Below, one piece after another: positions 2,353 to 28,380 of a DNA stretch of 64,000 bases. The translations under genes were made by a program, and so were the position numbers. Numbering within the stretch: the stretch's first letter is position 1; the number at the start of each line of letters is the position of its first letter. The notes below the pieces were generated by a model. The model saw only the letters and a list, made by a program, of their open reading frames with translations, was not told the DNA's origin and did not search any database. Origin of the DNA: Neogemmobacter tilapiae (GTDB taxonomy: Bacteria; Pseudomonadota; Alphaproteobacteria; Rhodobacterales; Rhodobacteraceae); assembly GCF_014652215.1 (NCBI RefSeq), contig NZ_BMYJ01000010.1, positions 1 through 64,000 of the forward strand, written 5' to 3'.

Positions 2353-3189
2353 ATGGCACTCAAGTCGTATAAGCCGACGACGCCAGGCCAGCGTGGGCTG
2401 GTTCTGATCGACCGTTCGGAGCTTTGGAAAGGACGTCCGGTTAAAGGCCTTACAGAAGGTCTTACGAAAACCGGCGGACGGAACAATACCGGACGCGTCA
2501 CGATGTGGCACAAGGGCGGTGGCGCAAAGCGTCTTTACCGCATCGTGGACTTCAAACGCCGCAAGTGGGATATGGCCGCTGTTGTGGAACGGATCGAATA
2601 TGACCCGAACCGCACCGCCTTTATCGCTTTGGTGAAATATTCGGACGGCGAGCTGGCCTATATCCTGGCCCCGCAGCGTCTGGCCGTGGGTGACAGCGTT
2701 GTCGCCGGCGCCAAGACTGACGTGAAACCGGGCAACGCGATGCCGTTCTCGGGGATGCCGATCGGGACGATCGTGCACAACGTCGAACTGAAGCCAGGCA
2801 AGGGCGGCCAATTGGCCCGTGCAGCTGGCACCTATGCCCAGTTCGTCGGTCGTGACGGTGGCTACGCCCAGATCCGGCTGTCGTCGGGCGAACTGCGCAT
2901 GGTCCGTCAGGAATGCATGGCGACCGTTGGTGCCGTGTCGAACCCTGACAATTCAAACCAGAACTTTGGTAAAGCCGGTCGTCGTCGTCACATGGGCATC
3001 CGCCCGACCGTTCGCGGTGTTGCGATGAACCCGATCGACCACCCGCATGGTGGTGGTGAAGGCCGGACCTCGGGTGGTCGTCACCCGGTTACGCCTTGGG
3101 GCAAGGGCACCAAGGGCAACAAGACGCGCAGCAACCGCGCTACGGACAAGTATATCGTTCGTTCGCGTCACGCGAAGAAGGGGCGCTAA
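2353..3189 (+). CDS. rplB: 50S ribosomal protein L2
   Basis: A 278-residue L2, needed for subunit association and peptidyl transferase activity. The start [15 protein letters not shown] is the conserved L2 N-terminus, with AGACAGAAAG upstream; the frame is open further 5' but without homology. The C-terminal [18 protein letters not shown] motif (about residues 225-242, including the catalytic-site histidine region) is intact. It is followed four bases later by rpsS. L2 is the first gene after an unusual terminator-containing spacer. Confidence 0.97.
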
Positions 3190-3192
3190 GCC

Positions 3193-3471
3193 ATGGCACG
3201 TTCAGTCTGGAAGGGCCCGTTCGTCGATTCTTACGTCTTGAAAAAGGCCGAGAAAGCGAAGGATTCGGGCAAGAACGAAGTGATCAAGATCTGGTCGCGT
3301 CGTTCGACGATTCTGCCGCAGTTCGTTGGTCTGACCTTTGGGGTCTACAACGGCAAGAAACATATCCCGGTCAACGTGACCGAGGAAATGATCGGTCAGA
3401 AATTCGGGGAATATTCGCCGACGCGGACCTACTATGGTCACGCCGCCGACAAGAAAGCGAAGAGGAAATAA
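3193..3471 (+). CDS. rpsS: 30S ribosomal protein S19
   Basis: A 92-residue S19 of the 30S head, binding partner of S13. [20 protein letters not shown] at the N-terminus and the segment [20 protein letters not shown] followed by NGKKHIPV in the middle are characteristic. It lies between rplB and rplV with spacings of three bases on each side, consistent with one transcript. Confidence 0.97.
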
Positions 3472-3474
3472 GCC

Positions 3475-3855
3475 ATGGGTAAGGAAAAGAATCCGCGCCG
3501 CGTGGCCGATAACGAGGCGATGGCCAAGCTGCGCATGCTGCGCACTTCGCCGCAAAAGCTGAACCTCGTCGCCGGTCTGATCCGGGGCAAGAAGGTCGAC
3601 AAGGCGATTGCCGACCTCACCTTCTCCAAGCGCCGCATTGCGAACGACGTGCTGAAATGCCTGCAATCGGCCATTGCCAATGCCGAGAACAACCATGGCC
3701 TTGACGTGGATGAACTCGTTGTGGCCGAGGCTTGGTGCGGCAAGAACCTGACGCTGAAGCGTGGCCGTCCGCGGGCACGTGGCCGTTTTGGCAAGATCAT
3801 GAAACCGTTCAGCGAGCTGACCATCAAGGTGCGGCAAGTCGGGGAGTCTGCATAA
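3475..3855 (+). CDS. rplV: 50S ribosomal protein L22
   Basis: A 126-residue L22 that spans the subunit and lines the exit tunnel with a beta-hairpin. The segment [20 protein letters not shown] (about residues 23-42) and the C-terminal hairpin sequence around [15 protein letters not shown] (residues 95-110) identify it. The stop TAA shares its last base with the rpsC ATG, so rplV and rpsC are probably coupled. Confidence 0.97.
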
Positions 3856-4565
3856 TGGGTCAGAAGGTCAACCCTATCGGGATGCGCCTACAGGTCAACC
3901 GGACCTGGGACAGCCGCTGGTATGCGGACACCAAGGACTACGGCAATCTGCTGCTGGAAGACCTCAAAATGCGCGAATTCGTGCATGAAGAGTGCAAGCA
4001 GGCTGGCGTGTCGAAGGTGATCATCGAACGCCCGCACAAAAAGTGCCGGGTGACGATCCACACCGCACGTCCGGGCGTGATCATCGGCAAGAAAGGTGCA
4101 GACATCGAAGGTCTGCGCAAAAAGCTGGCGAACTTCACCAAGTCGGAACTGCACCTGAACATCGTCGAAGTGCGCAAGCCCGAGATGGATGCTCAGCTGG
4201 TGGCCGAGTCGATTGCACAGCAGATGGAACGTCGCGTTTCGTTCCGTCGTGCCATGAAGCGTGGCGTGCAGAACGCGATGCGGATGGGCGCTCTGGGCAT
4301 TCGGGTGAACGTTTCGGGCCGTCTTGGCGGCGCTGAAATTGCACGTACCGAATGGTATCGCGAAGGCCGGGTTCCGCTGCACACGCTGCGGGCTGACATC
4401 GACTATGCCCTGTCCGAGGCGGAAACGCCTTATGGGATCATCGGTGTGAAGGTCTGGATCTTCAAAGGCGAGATTCTGGAACACGACCCGCAGGCGCATG
4501 ACCGCCGGCTGGCCGAAGCCCAGGACGGCCCCGCACCGCGCGGCGCTCGTCGCGATCGCGCGTAA
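3855..4565 (+). CDS. rpsC: 30S ribosomal protein S3
   Basis: A 236-residue S3, part of the mRNA entry channel with helicase activity. It begins [20 protein letters not shown], overlapping the rplV stop by one base; an earlier in-frame start at 3732 lies inside rplV and is not used. The KH domain motif [15 protein letters not shown] is at about residues 74-88 and the C-terminal domain carries the [19 protein letters not shown] block. An Ala/Arg-rich tail ends the protein. rplP follows 14 bases later. Confidence 0.97.
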
Positions 4566-4579
4566 GGGAGTAGGGACAA

Positions 4580-4993
4580 ATGCTGCAACCGAAACGGACG
4601 AAGTTCCGCAAACAGCACAAGGGCCGGATCAGCGGCGAAGCCAAGGGCGGCTTTGACCTGAACTTTGGCACCTATGGTCTGAAAGCGACGGAACCCGAGC
4701 GGGTCACCGCTCGTCAGATCGAAGCGGCCCGCCGCGCGATCACCCGCCACATGAAACGCCAAGGTCGCGTCTGGATCCGGATTTTCCCGGATGTTCCGGT
4801 CTCGGCCAAGCCGGTCGAAGTGCGGATGGGTAAAGGCAAGGGCTCGGTCGACTATTGGGCGGCCAAGGTAAAGCCGGGCCGGATCATGTTCGAGATCGAC
4901 GGCGTTGCCGAAGTGATCGCGCGTGAGGCTCTGCGTTTGGGCGCGATGAAACTGCCGGTCACGACCCGCGTCGTGGTGCGTGAAGACTGGTAA
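4580..4993 (+). CDS. rplP: 50S ribosomal protein L16
   Basis: A 137-residue L16 that binds near the A-site tRNA elbow. [16 protein letters not shown] at the start and the [20 protein letters not shown] segment in the middle are diagnostic. It has a GGGAGTAGGGAC ribosome binding region. In most bacteria rpmC and rpsQ follow directly; here a repeat element and a strong terminator follow, so the S10-type cluster ends at L16. Confidence 0.97.
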
Positions 4994-4997
4994 GGAA

Positions 4998-5020
4998 GAT
5001 GGGCAGATTGCCCATCCTAC
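4998..5020 (+). repeat. Small palindromic repeat, copy A
   Basis: GATGGGCA-GAT-TGCCCATC followed by CTAC. The same sequence recurs at 19611-19633 and, in reverse orientation with one difference, at 19647-19669. All copies lie just after or between genes for translation proteins. It forms an 8-bp hairpin with a 3-base loop and probably belongs to a small dispersed intergenic repeat family. Confidence 0.7.
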
Positions 5021-5027
5021 AAATAGA

Positions 5028-5055
5028 GGCCCCGCCGGAAACGGTGGGGCCTTTT
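5028..5055 (+). terminator. Intrinsic terminator after rplP
   Basis: GGCCCCGCC pairs with GGTGGGGCC over 9 bp (one G-T pair) around a GGAAAC loop, followed by TTTT. It closes the ribosomal protein transcript and separates it from the oxygenase-like gene at 5072. Confidence 0.85.
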
Positions 5056-5071
5056 CAACAGGGAGAAGACC

Positions 5072-5695
5072 ATGGCCGAGATTTCCACGCTTTTCGTGAC
5101 CCGCCTGTATCGCGCGGCTTTGAATGATCTGGCGAAGGTGCCGGTGGATTATGATGAGCTGAAGCGGACCTGCGAGACCTTTGCTGAGGATGACGAGGCG
5201 GGGCAGCAGTGGTGCGAGGACAACGGCTATCCCGGCTATACCAGCTATGCCTCGCTTTCTGATCTGGCCTGGCGGTCTCCCTTGTTTGCCGACCTGACGA
5301 AGGCGCTGGACAAGCATGTGGCGGCGTTTTGCAAGGCGTTGGAGTTTGATCTGCAAGGCAAGAAGCTGAAATGTGACAGCCTGTGGATCAATATCCTGCC
5401 CGAGGGCGGCACCCATGCCAGCCATATTCACCCGCATTCGGTGATTTCCGGCACGACCTATGTTTCGATGCCCGAGGGGACCAGTGCCCTGAAACTGGAA
5501 GACCCGCGCCTGCCGATGATGATGAATGCCCCCCTGCGGAAGAAGGGAGCGGATCAGGCGGTGCGGCCCTTTGTTTATGTGAAGCCTTTGGTGGGCGATG
5601 TCCTGCTGTGGGAAAGCTGGCTGCGGCATGAGGTGCCGATGAACATGGCCGAGGAAGAGCGGATTTCGGTGAGTTTCAATTACAACTGGGGCTAG
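5072..5695 (+). CDS. 2OG-Fe(II) oxygenase-like protein (TIGR02466 type)
   Basis: A 207-residue cytoplasmic protein resembling the TIGR02466 family of putative 2-oxoglutarate and Fe(II) dependent oxygenases. The probable metal ligands are in GGTHASHIHPHS (about residues 113-124, several His) and the distal His in WLRHEVPMN (about residue 188), with the Arg of ERISVSFNY (about residue 198) placed to bind the 2OG carboxylate. The start has a good GGGAGAAG ribosome binding site. Its substrate is unknown. It stands alone between the rplP terminator and an AT-rich spacer. Family assignment is moderately sure; the activity is inferred. Confidence 0.75.
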   Translation: MAEISTLFVTRLYRAALNDLAKVPVDYDELKRTCETFAEDDEAGQQWCEDNGYPGYTSYASLSDLAWRSPLFADLTKALDKHVAAFCKALEFDLQGKKLKCDSLWINILPEGGTHASHIHPHSVISGTTYVSMPEGTSALKLEDPRLPMMMNAPLRKKGADQAVRPFVYVKPLVGDVLLWESWLRHEVPMNMAEEERISVSFNYNWG

Positions 5696-12090: not shown

Positions 12091-12240
12091 ATGATCATGC
12101 GGTTTTTGATGTCCCTGTTCGAGGCAAGCGTCGGGAATGACACCTTTACGCGTCGCCTGGACCGCTTGAGCCGCCGTCAGCCCGCCCCGGTGACGGGCCG
12201 CGTGGTCTTTAGGACTCGGTCAGCACGTCGGGGAGCCTGA
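12091..12240 (+). CDS. Small hypothetical protein
   Basis: A possible 49-residue basic protein starting MIMRFLMSLFEASVGND, with GGAG five bases before the ATG. The N-terminus is a short amphipathic or hydrophobic helix and the C-terminus is Arg-rich. The last 32 bases overlap the end of mipZ on the other strand. I recognise no family; the ribosome binding site is the main support. Confidence 0.35.
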   Translation: MIMRFLMSLFEASVGNDTFTRRLDRLSRRQPAPVTGRVVFRTRSARRGA

Positions 12241-13003
12241 GTTCCCGGATCAGGTCGCGCAATTCCTGCCGGGCGGCGATGTTTGACATGTTCATCTGCC
12301 CCTCGCCGGTTTCTTTTAGGTCCAGCAAGGTCAGGCCCTTGGGGAACAATTCCCGAAAGATCACCCGTTCGGAAAAGCCTGGGGCGACACGAAAGCCGAT
12401 GCGGCGCGACAATTCTTCCAGCGCCGCGCCCACCTTGCGCTTGTTGTTCATCGCTTGCGCGCCAAGCCGGTTGCGCAAAACGATCCAGTCGATGGGCTTT
12501 AGCCCGGCCTGCGCCCGCGACTGGCGCGCGGCCCAGACCATTTCAGCATAGATCGACGGCCCTAGAACCTTGCCGCTGTCGGGGTCGGTGCGGGCCAGAA
12601 GGTCGAAATCAATGAAACTGTCGTTGAGGGGGGTGATCAGCGTGCTGGCCGAGGCATGGGCCATCTGGCTGAGTTTCGTATGGCTGCCGGGGCAGTCGAT
12701 GACAATGAAATCAGTGGCGCTGTCCAGATGCTCCATCGCCGCAGACAGGCGTTCGCCGTCCTGCGTATCGGTCTTTTGGCTGCTGGAGAGGTCGACATAT
12801 TCCGGCATCGGCAGATTGTGCCCCGAACGGGCGACAAAGGCGCGGCGGTTTTCCAAGTAGCGGCCAAAGCTGCGCTGGCGCAGATCAAGGTCCAAGGCGC
12901 CGACACGCTTGCCCAGCCGCAAGAGGGCGGTGGCGACATGCATCGAGGTGGTCGACTTGCCCGAGCCACCCTTTTCATTCCCGACAACGATAATATGCGC
13001 CAA
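12209..13003 (-). CDS. mipZ: MipZ, ParA-like cell division positioning ATPase
   Basis: A 264-residue Walker-type ATPase. The deviant P-loop NEKGGSGKSTT is at residues 9-19 and LDLDLRQRSFGRYLENR (about residues 37-53) matches the alphaproteobacterial MipZ family rather than ParA/Soj. In Caulobacter MipZ binds ParB at the origins and blocks FtsZ polymerisation near the poles, placing the division site at midcell. It is monocistronic here. ATG at 13003 has no better competitor. Confidence 0.9.
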   Translation of the reverse strand: MAHIIVVGNEKGGSGKSTTSMHVATALLRLGKRVGALDLDLRQRSFGRYLENRRAFVARSGHNLPMPEYVDLSSSQKTDTQDGERLSAAMEHLDSATDFIVIDCPGSHTKLSQMAHASASTLITPLNDSFIDFDLLARTDPDSGKVLGPSIYAEMVWAARQSRAQAGLKPIDWIVLRNRLGAQAMNNKRKVGAALEELSRRIGFRVAPGFSERVIFRELFPKGLTLLDLKETGEGQMNMSNIAARQELRDLIRELRLPDVLTES

Positions 13004-13096
13004 ATCTTCCCCCGCGCATGGAATTCATGGGCTGGCAGGCCCGTTGCGCCAAGGGGCTATCTGTTGGCCGATGAGGGCGCAAGGGGTAACGCTATT

Positions 13097-13861
13097 TCAA
13101 GCCGCTCGTTCAAGGAGCCTCTGATAGACCTGATCCGAAACACTCTGCTCAATTACGTTGGCATTATGCGAAAGAACACCAAGATAGGTGCCGAGCGCTT
13201 TTTTGTCGACGACCACTGCCACACGACCGGGCGCATTTTCTAGCCTTGCCAGATCACCAAATTTTGCCGCTGCGTAAATGACGGAATTCTTATGCTCGCT
13301 GACTGCTTCGAAAACGAGTTTACGCTCTTTGACTGTTACAACAGATGTCAGATGCCATTTCGTATTTGAAGCACCGACGATTTCGACATCCCTCGCCACA
13401 AATTTCGGATCATAGACGGATCGCAGACGCTCGATCAGAAGTTCCGAGTTATCCTTATGCCTGCGTTCTGCGATTCTCATCGCAGTGAGATTGACTGCTT
13501 CTTGCGAAGCGTTTGCGATCACGGCGACTGCCCCTATCAGTTGATCCTTGTTCGCCGTCAGAAAGAAAAAGGCGGCATCATCGAAGCTGATGCCCACCGT
13601 TTCTGCGATGGTCTTGGCCTGCCGACGATAGATCCCTTCACCGCCCATCAGCAGGGCCTCTTCGAAACCCGCCCCGAAGTCGGATACAAAGAAATTTTCA
13701 CCGTTCTGTTCGATGCGGACAACGACATATCCCCCGCTGGCATACATCAGGGGAGTCGTCACGAAATGCGCCCCAGCAACACTTTCTACGCTGACAAGCC
13801 GTGCAACGGCGGCGCGCACAAAGTCTTGAATCACATGGGCTTCTTGTAGCGTGGCGTTCAT
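13097..13861 (-). CDS. DUF1828-like protein of unknown function
   Basis: A 254-residue soluble protein. The region from about residue 30 to 65, with a strand-rich pattern ending in FFVSDFGAGFEEA, resembles the DUF1828 domain seen in phage and accessory genes. A His/Asn-poor C-terminal half has HKNSVIYAAAKFGDLARL. No signal peptide or membrane segment. Its ATG overlaps the stop of the preceding gene (ATGA), so the two form one coupled unit. GC content is lower than neighbours (for example 25 to 27 of 60 bases in 13261-13380), which suggests acquisition by transfer. Function unknown. Confidence 0.7.
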   Translation of the reverse strand: MNATLQEAHVIQDFVRAAVARLVSVESVAGAHFVTTPLMYASGGYVVVRIEQNGENFFVSDFGAGFEEALLMGGEGIYRRQAKTIAETVGISFDDAAFFFLTANKDQLIGAVAVIANASQEAVNLTAMRIAERRHKDNSELLIERLRSVYDPKFVARDVEIVGASNTKWHLTSVVTVKERKLVFEAVSEHKNSVIYAAAKFGDLARLENAPGRVAVVVDKKALGTYLGVLSHNANVIEQSVSDQVYQRLLERAA

Positions 13862-14391
13862 ATCAGTCGGGCCGACCAAGGAGGTGGTGGCAGCAATGCC
13901 ACGCCCTTGATTCTAAATTGTTTTTCAACAAACTCAAGGGCCTTTTCAAAGGGCATGTCCGCGACCGGAACCGCGATATCCAGGATACCGTTCCGAACAC
14001 GTTTCGGGGAGTAGGCCCAATTGAGATGGAAGTCATGAAGATGCGTACCCCTGATGGCGATCATCCTATATTCGGGCGGCCCGCAATTCTTGTTATTATG
14101 CGCTTGAAATGGACGCCAATCCAGTCGGCAAATCGGTCCCCCCTTGGGCTGCGAGGTCGACGGGGAATACTCCAGCTGAAAGGCAACTTGTCGATCCGGT
14201 AGTTCAATTCGCGCCCTTGCCCGGAAGGCCAAACCGGCCATTGTTACGCCATCAATGTCTAGAGGGGATACAAGATCAGCATAATCCTTGCGCGCGGTCA
14301 CAACCCAATCAGGATTGATGGCCAGTTCCTTCTGCGCCACATAAAAACTGTCGAGATCAACATCTGTCTGCATGGGCAGATAGTCCGACAA
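13858..14391 (-). CDS. Hypothetical protein, first gene of a two-gene cassette
   Basis: A 177-residue soluble protein that I cannot assign with confidence. The middle contains FQLEYSPSTSQPKG and a Gly/Pro/Cys stretch, then TRG-less GTHLHDFHLNW with several histidines (about residues 116-126), and the end is proline-rich (LLPPPPW). It precedes and overlaps the DUF1828-like gene by four bases. The arrangement of two small coupled, lower-GC genes between mipZ and rpmE is typical of toxin-antitoxin or defence modules, but no toxin motif is identifiable. Confidence 0.65.
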   Translation of the reverse strand: MSDYLPMQTDVDLDSFYVAQKELAINPDWVVTARKDYADLVSPLDIDGVTMAGLAFRARARIELPDRQVAFQLEYSPSTSQPKGGPICRLDWRPFQAHNNKNCGPPEYRMIAIRGTHLHDFHLNWAYSPKRVRNGILDIAVPVADMPFEKALEFVEKQFRIKGVALLPPPPWSARLI

Positions 14392-14431
14392 TTTTTGCGT
14401 GAGTCAATCGCATCAGCGACTGGATGAAAAA

Positions 14432-14453
14432 GGGCGCAACCTGCGTTGCGCCC
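14432..14453. terminator. Bidirectional intrinsic terminator after rpmE
   Basis: GGGCGCAA-CCTGCG-TTGCGCCC is a perfect 8-bp stem. It is followed by TTTT on the plus strand and preceded by a run of As (TTTTT on the minus strand). It ends the minus-strand rpmE transcript, which stops at 14477. Confidence 0.85.
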
Positions 14454-14476
14454 TTTTCTTTCCGCGAAGGGTTGGA

Positions 14477-14698
14477 TCAGAAACCCAGACCTTCGTATTT
14501 GTTCTTGAACTTCGACACGCGGCCGCCGGTGTCCATCAGTTTGGCGGTCTGGCCGGTCCAGGCGGGGTGGGCCAGCGGGTCGATGTCGAGCGCCATCTGG
14601 TCGCCCTCTTTGCCCCAAGTGGTTTTGGTTTGAAAGATCGTGCCGTCGGTCATCTTGACGTCGATCAGGTGGTAATCGGGATGGATGTCTTTTTTCAT
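14477..14698 (-). CDS. rpmE: 50S ribosomal protein L31 (zinc-independent form)
   Basis: A 73-residue L31 beginning [20 protein letters not shown]31 bridges the two subunits at the central protuberance. It has no cysteine at all, so it is the C-minus, zinc-free form. It follows rplS after 11 bases and ends with a hairpin terminator. Confidence 0.95.
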
Positions 14699-26650: not shown

Positions 26651-27565
26651 ATGAGTCTGCGTTCCGGCGGCCCCTTGGCCGGTCATGCGGCCATGCTGGC
26701 CTTTTCGGCCCTTGTCGCGGGTTCCTTTTCGTTGGGCCGTCTGGCGGCCCCACTGATCTCGCCCGAGGCATTGACCGTGGTGCGCTTTCTGCTGGCGGGG
26801 GCCTTGGTCGGCGTTGCTGCCGTTGCCACGACGGGCATCCGACGTGCGGCCTTGCAGGCCCCTTGGCGCTATCTGGTGCTGGGCGGGTTGCTGGCGATTT
26901 ATTTTGTGCTGATGTTCTATGGTCTGAAAACCGCCGATGCGGTTTCGGCGGCGGCTGTCTTTACCCTGACTCCGCTGATGTCTGCCGGATTCGGCTGGCT
27001 GCTGCTGCGCCAACCTTTGACGGGGCGAATGGGGCTGGCCCTGACGCTGGGGGCGGTGGGGGCGCTTTGGGTGATCTTTCGCGCCGATCTGGCGGCGTTC
27101 CTGCGATTCAACATCGGGCGGGGCGAGTTCATCTATTTCTGGGGCTGCGTCGCCCATGCCGCCTATACGCCGATGGTGCGCAAGCTGAACCGGGGCGAAC
27201 CGGCGGTGGTCTTTACCTTTGGCATGATGATGGCGGGGCTGCTGATCCTGACGCTTTGGGGGGCGCCCGCCGTTATTGCCACCGATTGGACGGCTTTGCC
27301 CCCCATTGTCTGGATCGCGCTGGTCTATCTGGCGGTGGCGGCCAGTGCGATGACCTTTGTTCTGCTGCAATATGCGACGCTGCGTCTGCCTTCGGCCAAG
27401 GTCATGGCCTATACCTATCTGGTGCCCGCCTGGGTCATCCTTTGGGAAATCGCCCTGCACGGCGCATGGCCACCCGCGCTTTTGCTGGTGGGTGTGGTCT
27501 TGACGGCACTGGGTCTGATCTTGCTGCTGAAAGACGAAGACGGGCCGCGCGGGGCACCGGGCTAA
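26651..27565 (+). CDS. DMT-superfamily (EamA) transporter
   Basis: A 304-residue ten-helix transporter with two EamA repeats; the FSLGRLAAPLISPEALTVVRFLLAGAL start and MAYTYLVPAWVILWEIALHG near the end are typical. It begins ten bases after the LysR gene, so it is likely in the same operon and possibly in its regulon. The substrate cannot be read from the sequence. Confidence 0.87.
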   Translation: MSLRSGGPLAGHAAMLAFSALVAGSFSLGRLAAPLISPEALTVVRFLLAGALVGVAAVATTGIRRAALQAPWRYLVLGGLLAIYFVLMFYGLKTADAVSAAAVFTLTPLMSAGFGWLLLRQPLTGRMGLALTLGAVGALWVIFRADLAAFLRFNIGRGEFIYFWGCVAHAAYTPMVRKLNRGEPAVVFTFGMMMAGLLILTLWGAPAVIATDWTALPPIVWIALVYLAVAASAMTFVLLQYATLRLPSAKVMAYTYLVPAWVILWEIALHGAWPPALLLVGVVLTALGLILLLKDEDGPRGAPG

Positions 27566-28380
27566 TCGCCCAGTTTCGCGTGGACTTCGGCCAGATCGAC
27601 CGGACCTTTCGGCATCTTGTTGGCCGGGTTGTCGAAATCATACTGAAACAGCTGGAAATCGCGTTTGTAGATTTCCCACATCAGATGCATCGACAGATCG
27701 TCAAAATAGGCTTCGACCGGATGCGCCCGTTTCGGCCCATGCCCCTCGCTTTCGTTGAAACGCGGGATGCTGGCCAGATCAACGGCATTTTTCACCGGCA
27801 CATGGTTCAGCACCACCTGCATGCCGGGATTGAAATCCTCGGTGAAAAAAATGTGGTCGTAGGTGCCGCCGTTTACGATAAAGGTCGAGATATGTCCCGC
27901 CATCGCGGACCAATGGATGTCCGGCTCCATCGGTTTTTTCCAGCGGATGGTGTCGCGCACGAACAGAAGAAAGCGGCGAAAGCTTTTGATCTGGTCGAAT
28001 TCGTCCTTGCCCTCGGGCCCGCCGACCTCGATCCCGTACTTCTGGGTCAGCATCGGCACCAGATTGCCGCGATAGCGTTTGCCGTTCCGTTGAATCCCAC
28101 AAATCTTGTCGAAATAAGAGGATAGGACGCGCGTATAGGGGTTCCGCACACAGGTGAAGGCATAGGATTTATGCCCCCGCACATTCGCCTCGATCAGCGG
28201 CTGGCTATCCTCACGCGCCCATTTGTGCAGGCCCTGCGTCGCATCATGGATATCGCCGTCAAAGAACCGCCCGTGATCGGCATAGAACATGATCTGCCCG
28301 ATGGTCGAACAGGCGCATTTTGGCACCACCCGATAGACCATGCTTTCGCTTTCGGTCATCCATGTTCCTGGAAATCCCAT
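27562..28380 (-). CDS. Sulfotransferase family protein
   Basis: A 272-residue sulfotransferase of the membrane-independent or Golgi-like group (sulfotransfer_2). The PAPS 5'-phosphosulfate motif VPKCACSTI (about residues 19-27) and the 3'-phosphate region FTCVRNPYTRVLSSYFDK (about 75-92) are both present. It would sulfate a carbohydrate. It is divergent from the glycosyltransferase gene at 28494, 113 bases apart, so both probably modify a surface polysaccharide. The start is the ORF's first ATG. Confidence 0.85.
   Translation of the reverse strand: MGFPGTWMTESESMVYRVVPKCACSTIGQIMFYADHGRFFDGDIHDATQGLHKWAREDSQPLIEANVRGHKSYAFTCVRNPYTRVLSSYFDKICGIQRNGKRYRGNLVPMLTQKYGIEVGGPEGKDEFDQIKSFRRFLLFVRDTIRWKKPMEPDIHWSAMAGHISTFIVNGGTYDHIFFTEDFNPGMQVVLNHVPVKNAVDLASIPRFNESEGHGPKRAHPVEAYFDDLSMHLMWEIYKRDFQLFQYDFDNPANKMPKGPVDLAEVHAKLGD

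Follow-up and report, generated by a model that had tools for sequence, protein, structure and literature searches.

Two overlapping genes lie between the housekeeping genes rpmE and mipZ of Neogemmobacter tilapiae, and a reading of the sequence alone had proposed them as an undescribed toxin-antitoxin (TA) or anti-phage module. How did this pair come to be at this site, to what is it related, and what may its two proteins do? We addressed these questions in the 64,000-nucleotide stretch that contains the locus (the window), in related genomes, and in phages, plasmids, and mobile elements that carry comparable pairs.

An Acquired Gene Pair between rpmE and mipZ

Genes A and B are both open on the minus strand by ORF calls, are joined by a stop/start overlap, and are flanked by the two housekeeping genes, in line with the layout that the sequence-only reading had described (Table 1). 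Gene A starts with TTG, and an in-frame ATG lies 6 codons further in. The hairpin of the rpmE terminator has a z of -5.7 vs shuffles, and a promoter scan of the A-B insert scored at chance level. The pair had also been described as 42 to 45% GC. It is a real outlier, but that range is true of only a few 60-nt lines, which span 42 to 63%; the pair as a whole has a GC content of 52.4% (A 52.8, B 52.0), and the window averages 62.5% (SD 3.0, 1,295-nt windows). Only 0.16% of 1,295-nt windows are as GC-poor as the pair, and away from the locus none is at or below 54%. The third codon positions agree, with a GC3 of 54-55% in A and B vs 78% in mipZ, 80% in rpmE, and a median of 73%. Elsewhere in the window, a 420-codon ORF on the plus strand (26863-28125) has the lowest GC3 among the long ORFs (0.52); it has no Pfam match and may be spurious or foreign.

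Table 1. Positions of the A-B pair, its parts, and its neighbors in the window, and of transposon-borne pairs at other loci
Feature	Position	Strand	Basis or remark
Gene A	13858..14391	-	ORF, 177 aa; putative divergent relative of PDC-M24A/DUF6978; proposed effector (toxin)
Gene B	13097..13861	-	ORF, 254 aa from ATG; putative divergent relative of PDC-M24B/DUF1828-DUF1829; proposed antitoxin/sensor
ATGA overlap, A stop and B start, translational coupling	13858..13861	-	Read from sequence
rpmE (50S ribosomal protein L31), housekeeping neighbor upstream of A	14477..14698	-	ORF; orthologues adjoin mipZ in relatives
mipZ, housekeeping neighbor downstream of B	12209..13003	-	In relatives, the site between rpmE and mipZ is empty
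rpmE terminator, strong stem-loop then T run, upstream edge of insert	14427..14458	-	Fold -28.3 kcal/mol
A conserved block R89...H98-x-N100...H117-x-H119, proposed active site	14035..14127	-	Near-invariant in 24 divergent homologues
A K21, apart from the block	14329-14331	-	Conserved over 24 homologues
B residues 10-131, DUF1828-like domain, predicted chaperone/YbjN-like fold	13469..13834	-	VIA-align 2
B residues 133-254, DUF1829-like domain, predicted PD-(D/E)XK-like fold without ExK lysine	13100..13465	-	VIA-align 2, Foldseek, alignments
IS1595-family transporter elements with diverged A-B pair and transposase	L011:7234-9686; L028:4766-7318; L029:5314-7758; L091:about 2890-5310

We located mipZ in 30 related genomes, and rpmE adjoins it in twelve of those fetched. 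The gap between the two genes is 87-247 bp in nine of the measured relatives and 405-734 bp in three, vs 1,473 bp in the window. Because rpmE and mipZ are adjacent and mostly closely spaced in these relatives, the A-B pair is an acquired insert at a conserved site. Its occurrence is rare and patchy. Of 296 genera sampled within the family, searches found gene B in 5 and gene A in 4, and the fifth B-bearing genus also proved to have A when its locus was read. In a sample of the phylum, 8 of 398 genomes have a true B; four further matches (L033-L036, in G395, G645, G602, and G446) are partial, have no adjoining A, and were treated as chance. Used as a single query, window B found no close relatives in viral collections or, by the seed search applied there, in 84,980 species-representative genomes, and the window-type branch was found here in Pseudomonadota only, mostly in Rhodobacteraceae and relatives. 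This distribution, taken with the gap comparison, marks the pair as accessory and horizontally acquired. The counter-case that the sequence-only reading had set against its own proposal, namely a pair always at this site and vertically inherited, is contradicted by relatives that lack the pair there and by the patchy genera, which together speak against a housekeeping reading with the pair fixed at this site.

Pairing of A with B is obligatory in window-type loci: in each of the 18 (the window, L010-L014, L027-L032, L090, L091, L093, L094, L096, and L097), A immediately precedes B, although in L093 A is cut by the contig end. An overlap of 4 bp is shared by most of the homologous pairs that were checked. 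In a mirror-tree comparison of 23 pairs, the distance matrices of the two proteins are correlated with r = 0.87, a value reached in none of 2,000 Mantel permutations.

Relationship to the PDC-M24 Candidate Family

Direct scans of window A and B against Pfam, NCBIfam, PHROG, and PADLOC returned nothing decisive. Window B matched PHROG 1960, of unassigned function, at 8.9e-6 and the PADLOC model PDC-M24B weakly (E 0.0023), the latter also being matched by 5 of 12 family members (best 3.3e-11). PDC-M24A was not matched by window A and was matched by 1 of 12 family members (E 0.04). At the curated cutoffs, window B matched neither Pfam DUF1828 (PF08861) nor DUF1829 (PF08862), and window A did not match DUF6978 (PF22398); single members of the B family reached E values of 0.03 and 0.0028 to the first two, and one A member reached 0.033 to the third. 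Weak matches to PF24744, Csn2, and PRK07102 were dropped. We also compared profiles.

For this comparison, typical M24 pairs were gathered from plasmids, phages, and genomes, and a sample was confirmed as M24A/M24B. The A profiles (A4 vs A7) match with an E value of 1.4e-6 and a probability of 90%, with the R, H-x-N, and H-x-H positions superposed, and the B profiles (A3 vs A8) match nearly end to end over 219 columns (E 7.3e-12, probability 97.5%). Controls consisting of cross-comparisons, reversed profiles, and 60 column shuffles gave no match in any case. Since the controls are negative, these matches indicate that the window pair is a strongly diverged branch of PDC-M24 (DUF6978 + DUF1828/DUF1829). 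The earlier label "DUF1828-like" thus stands at the level of remote profiles, not at that of a Pfam match. "Undescribed" applies to the branch itself, but PADLOC-DB 2.0 already lists the more typical members as a candidate family (PDC-M24), and PDCs are described as unvalidated defense candidates (PMC12988326). Our literature search found no paper that tests a DUF6978-DUF1828 pair.

The window pair shares with PDC-M24 the gene order, in which A is followed directly by B within a single operon, the frequent 4-bp overlap, similar protein sizes, near-full-length remote profile similarity of both proteins, the conserved A residues, and the phage, plasmid, and restriction-modification (RM) contexts. 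It differs in having ~9-17% identity to typical members, in a window A that the PADLOC model misses, and in a branch that is often IS1595 cargo. The pair is thus not categorically new but a remote variant of the PDC-M24 candidate system; as far as we found, what appears to be new is the branch and its transport by IS1595 elements, together with the conserved site in A and a B that is predicted to be built on a dead nuclease.

Two loci depart from the pairing. A Lactobacillus intestinalis plasmid (L083:2989-3777) encodes a DUF1828 protein with no A upstream, either a solo B or a decayed pair. In Rhizobium phage RHph_N28_2 (L082:2498-3792), an S24 repressor adjoins a protein annotated as DUF1828 whose upstream partner is of another kind and whose C-terminal half does not match, possibly a partner swap. 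The locus was rejected as an A-B pair; the upstream gene is unlike A, and its B fails to align with that of L014.

Mobile Carriers

An IS1595-family transposase (Pfam PF12762) adjoins five window-type pairs, L011, L028, L029, L031, and L091. In all but L031, a common terminal inverted repeat, TATCCCCTTGACGCA, encloses A, B, and the transposase in about 2.4-2.5 kb, and flanks read by eye show apparent 8-bp target duplications in L011 (TTTTAAAA) and L029 (TAAAGATT). L031 has different 38-nt repeats and a different gene order, which suggests that IS1595 elements captured the pair probably at least twice. IS copies that bear passenger genes, or transporter ISs, are known for the IS1595 family (Siguier et al. 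2009, as cited in PMC3129680). The window copy is not itself such an element, since no transposase, integrase, or complete terminal inverted repeats were found around it, and its surroundings are not a defense island. A 15-mer on the minus strand, TAGCCCCTTGGCGCA (13045-13059), has 2 mismatches to the inverted-repeat core of the related IS1595 elements. It lies 40 bp past B, inside the mipZ promoter region, and may be a relic or chance; its orientation is that of the opposite end, and it was not counted as a terminal inverted repeat of the window pair.

Other window-type pairs have other companions. L013, L014, and L097 are in prophage or S24-repressor settings, and serine recombinases adjoin L027 and L090. 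The L094 pair adjoins a truncated MmeI-type restriction-methylase. In two metagenome Rhodobacteraceae, ter-type stress genes lie near the pair (L012:14-6375, with PP2C and kinase; L094:937-3728, with TerD), a possible shared hotspot. A related protein of unassigned function, with the motif FREIDD..P.LA.SP.VRG.EKTF.WI, is encoded several kb from two pairs (L027:10381-11247 and L097:2722-3735).

Typical M24 pairs are similarly mobile. In phages 37, Lj965, Javan197, and MissF, they have the repressor on one side and the integrase on the other, a slot that they occupy in Staphylococcus, Lactobacillus, and Streptococcus phages; they are also found in the satellite phage Javan357 (where A is unannotated), on plasmids such as pRSB223, and inside a type I restriction operon ordered hsdM-hsdS-A-B-...-hsdR (hsdM by position and sequence look only). 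The A-B pair is a horizontally moving two-gene module.

The recurrent slot between a CI/S24 repressor and an integrase would also suit a function in controlling lysogeny, and it raises the alternative that the pair serves the mobile element. It would then assist in repressing the prophage, maintaining lysogeny, or recombining, and its chromosomal copies would be stranded ones. We consider this unlikely. The IS1595 elements, plasmids, and the type I RM operon carry the pair without repressor or integrase and share no common lysogeny circuit, and the same slot of temperate phages also holds accessory immunity genes, as in Lj965, where a gene annotated for superinfection exclusion is found two genes away from the A-B pair.

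Protein A

Positions conserved in at least 70% of 24 A homologues are M1, K21, R89, H98, N100, P105, H117, H119, A140, and L176. Conservation is almost confined to polar residues, and K21, R89, H98, N100, H117, and H119 are all kept in window A. These near-invariant residues resemble a catalytic set. A structure prediction for A, which the sequence-only reading had proposed as a check, gave a mostly β-sheet model with a pLDDT of 88 and no recognizable PDB fold: no PDB match exceeded a Z of 4.7, and the best, to C1QBP/p32, is not trusted. Against BFVD, the best match is an unnamed phage protein (TM 0.51/0.58, E 0.0034). Pfam contains no kinase match for A. Kinship with TumE (PF20126), suggested by the look of an RxD...HxH pattern, has no profile support; the similarity of A to the TumE profile, built from 2 sequences only, is limited to the HxH stretch.

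Protein B

The structure model of B (pLDDT 89.5, pTM 0.65) has two domains. By VIA-align 2, the N-terminal domain is most similar to 3cxj (Z 9.2, rmsd 2.6, 112 aligned), 8q8o (Z 8.6, 3.2, 117), and the secretion-chaperone chain 1xkp_B (Z 8.6, 3.2, 105). The C-terminal domain matches 1xmx (Z 10.6, rmsd 3.1, 116 aligned), Cdn1 (10.4, 3.0, 117), Bax1 (10.3, 3.4, 109), Can2 (10.2, 3.3, 118), and BstEII (10.0, 3.1, 121); Z is also about 10 with VC1899, as it is with Cdn1, Can2, Bax1, and BstEII. In Foldseek, the best E value for this domain is 7.8e-4. The modeled domain likely, though not certainly, adopts a PD-(D/E)XK fold, an assignment that we word cautiously because CheY-like receivers (Z 8-10) score close behind the nucleases.

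The resemblance of this half to Can2/Card1/Cdn1, Bax1, and restriction enzymes, along with a D203 that is invariant in 24 homologues, would also suit a scheme in which B is the effector, a real nuclease with unusual residues such as D203, and A is its immunity protein or sensor. We judge this slightly more doubtful than a role in serving the mobile element. The lysine of the D...(E/D)xK active site is absent in 24 of 24 homologues aligned, suggesting that B is probably not a nuclease; window B also lacks the β-2 acidic residue, and B has only a small number of conserved residues, chiefly glycines or aspartates in loops, compared with the catalytic-type set in A.

Proposed Mechanism and Relation to Known Systems

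Taken together, the insertion, the linkage, the mobile carriers, the family link, the conserved residues of A, and the predicted folds of B are best fitted by a TA-like pair. We regard it as likely that the pair is a defense or inter-element conflict module and, should that hold, rather probable that A is the toxin, a choice to which residue conservation points. The full scheme, a TA-like anti-phage or superinfection-exclusion unit in which A is the effector and B the antitoxin or sensor, has in our estimation about an even chance of being correct. In this scheme, A would be a small, mostly β-sheet enzyme that works through a conserved K/R/H-x-N/H-x-H set, probably on nucleic acid or some other part of the cell. 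B, whose ORF follows that of A and is coupled to it, would bind A via its chaperone-like N-terminal domain and keep it silent, and the restriction-enzyme-like C-terminal domain, probably catalytically dead, would bind nucleic acid for autoregulation of the operon and/or sensing of infection. Infection would then free or activate A, and either phage growth would be blocked or the infected cell aborted. We infer that A is toxic, that the two proteins bind each other, and that B binds DNA, as well as the trigger and the defense phenotype, and the scheme is to be read with the limits that the window proteins alone score weakly and that PDC-M24 is itself an unvalidated candidate. Of the earlier proposal of a TA or anti-phage module, the mobile two-gene module is well supported by insertion, patchiness, linkage, carriers, and PDC-M24 homology, and "undescribed" survives in part. 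A more far-reaching version, which we advance tentatively, is that A may represent a new enzymatic effector family, held in check by a B that joins a secretion-chaperone-like domain to a dead restriction-enzyme one. The pair would then be a TA architecture of a new type, with a degenerate nuclease fold in the role of antitoxin or DNA-binding sensor, and phages and IS1595 transposons would have spread it. A relic that is neutral or domesticated by the host, drifting or in a local housekeeping role beside mipZ, would fit a window pair that has no transposase, integrase, or complete inverted repeats and, by the seed search, no close relative in the species-representative genomes, but it is improbable given intact and coupled frames, retention of all six conserved A residues and the invariant B residues, and relatives without the pair at the same site.

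Independent support for the TA-like reading comes from the presence of DUF1829 in the partner protein of DS-6/HipAD. This is a validated two-protein defense system in which HipA-like kinase activity is needed, and its DUF3037-DUF1829 partner is predicted to bind toxin and DNA, the authors hypothesizing a TA mechanism (PMC13092281). The window pair is likewise a two-gene module with a DUF1829-like domain in the partner protein; it differs in that the effector of HipAD is a HipA-family kinase, whereas A has no kinase match, and in that B has a DUF1828-like domain in place of DUF3037. With classical type II TA systems the pair shares a small, coupled, mobile operon of one catalytic-looking protein and one with binding-type domains, but A belongs to no recognized toxin family, the antitoxin-side protein is larger (254 aa), and A comes first and B second. 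The CRISPR ancillary proteins Can2/Card1/Cdn1 resemble B in the PD-(D/E)XK-like fold of the C-terminal domain (VIA-align Z about 9-10), although B has no recognized CARF domain or ExK motif and no type III CRISPR adjoins the pair in the loci read.

These results link an unannotated alphaproteobacterial pair to an existing defense candidate, extend that candidate to remote homologues missed by current defense finders, and supply concrete residues and proposed domain roles for A and B. Its recurrence in lysogeny modules of phages, in IS1595 elements, and at RM loci makes the pair a means of testing whether prophages and small transposons use one module in phage-phage conflict.
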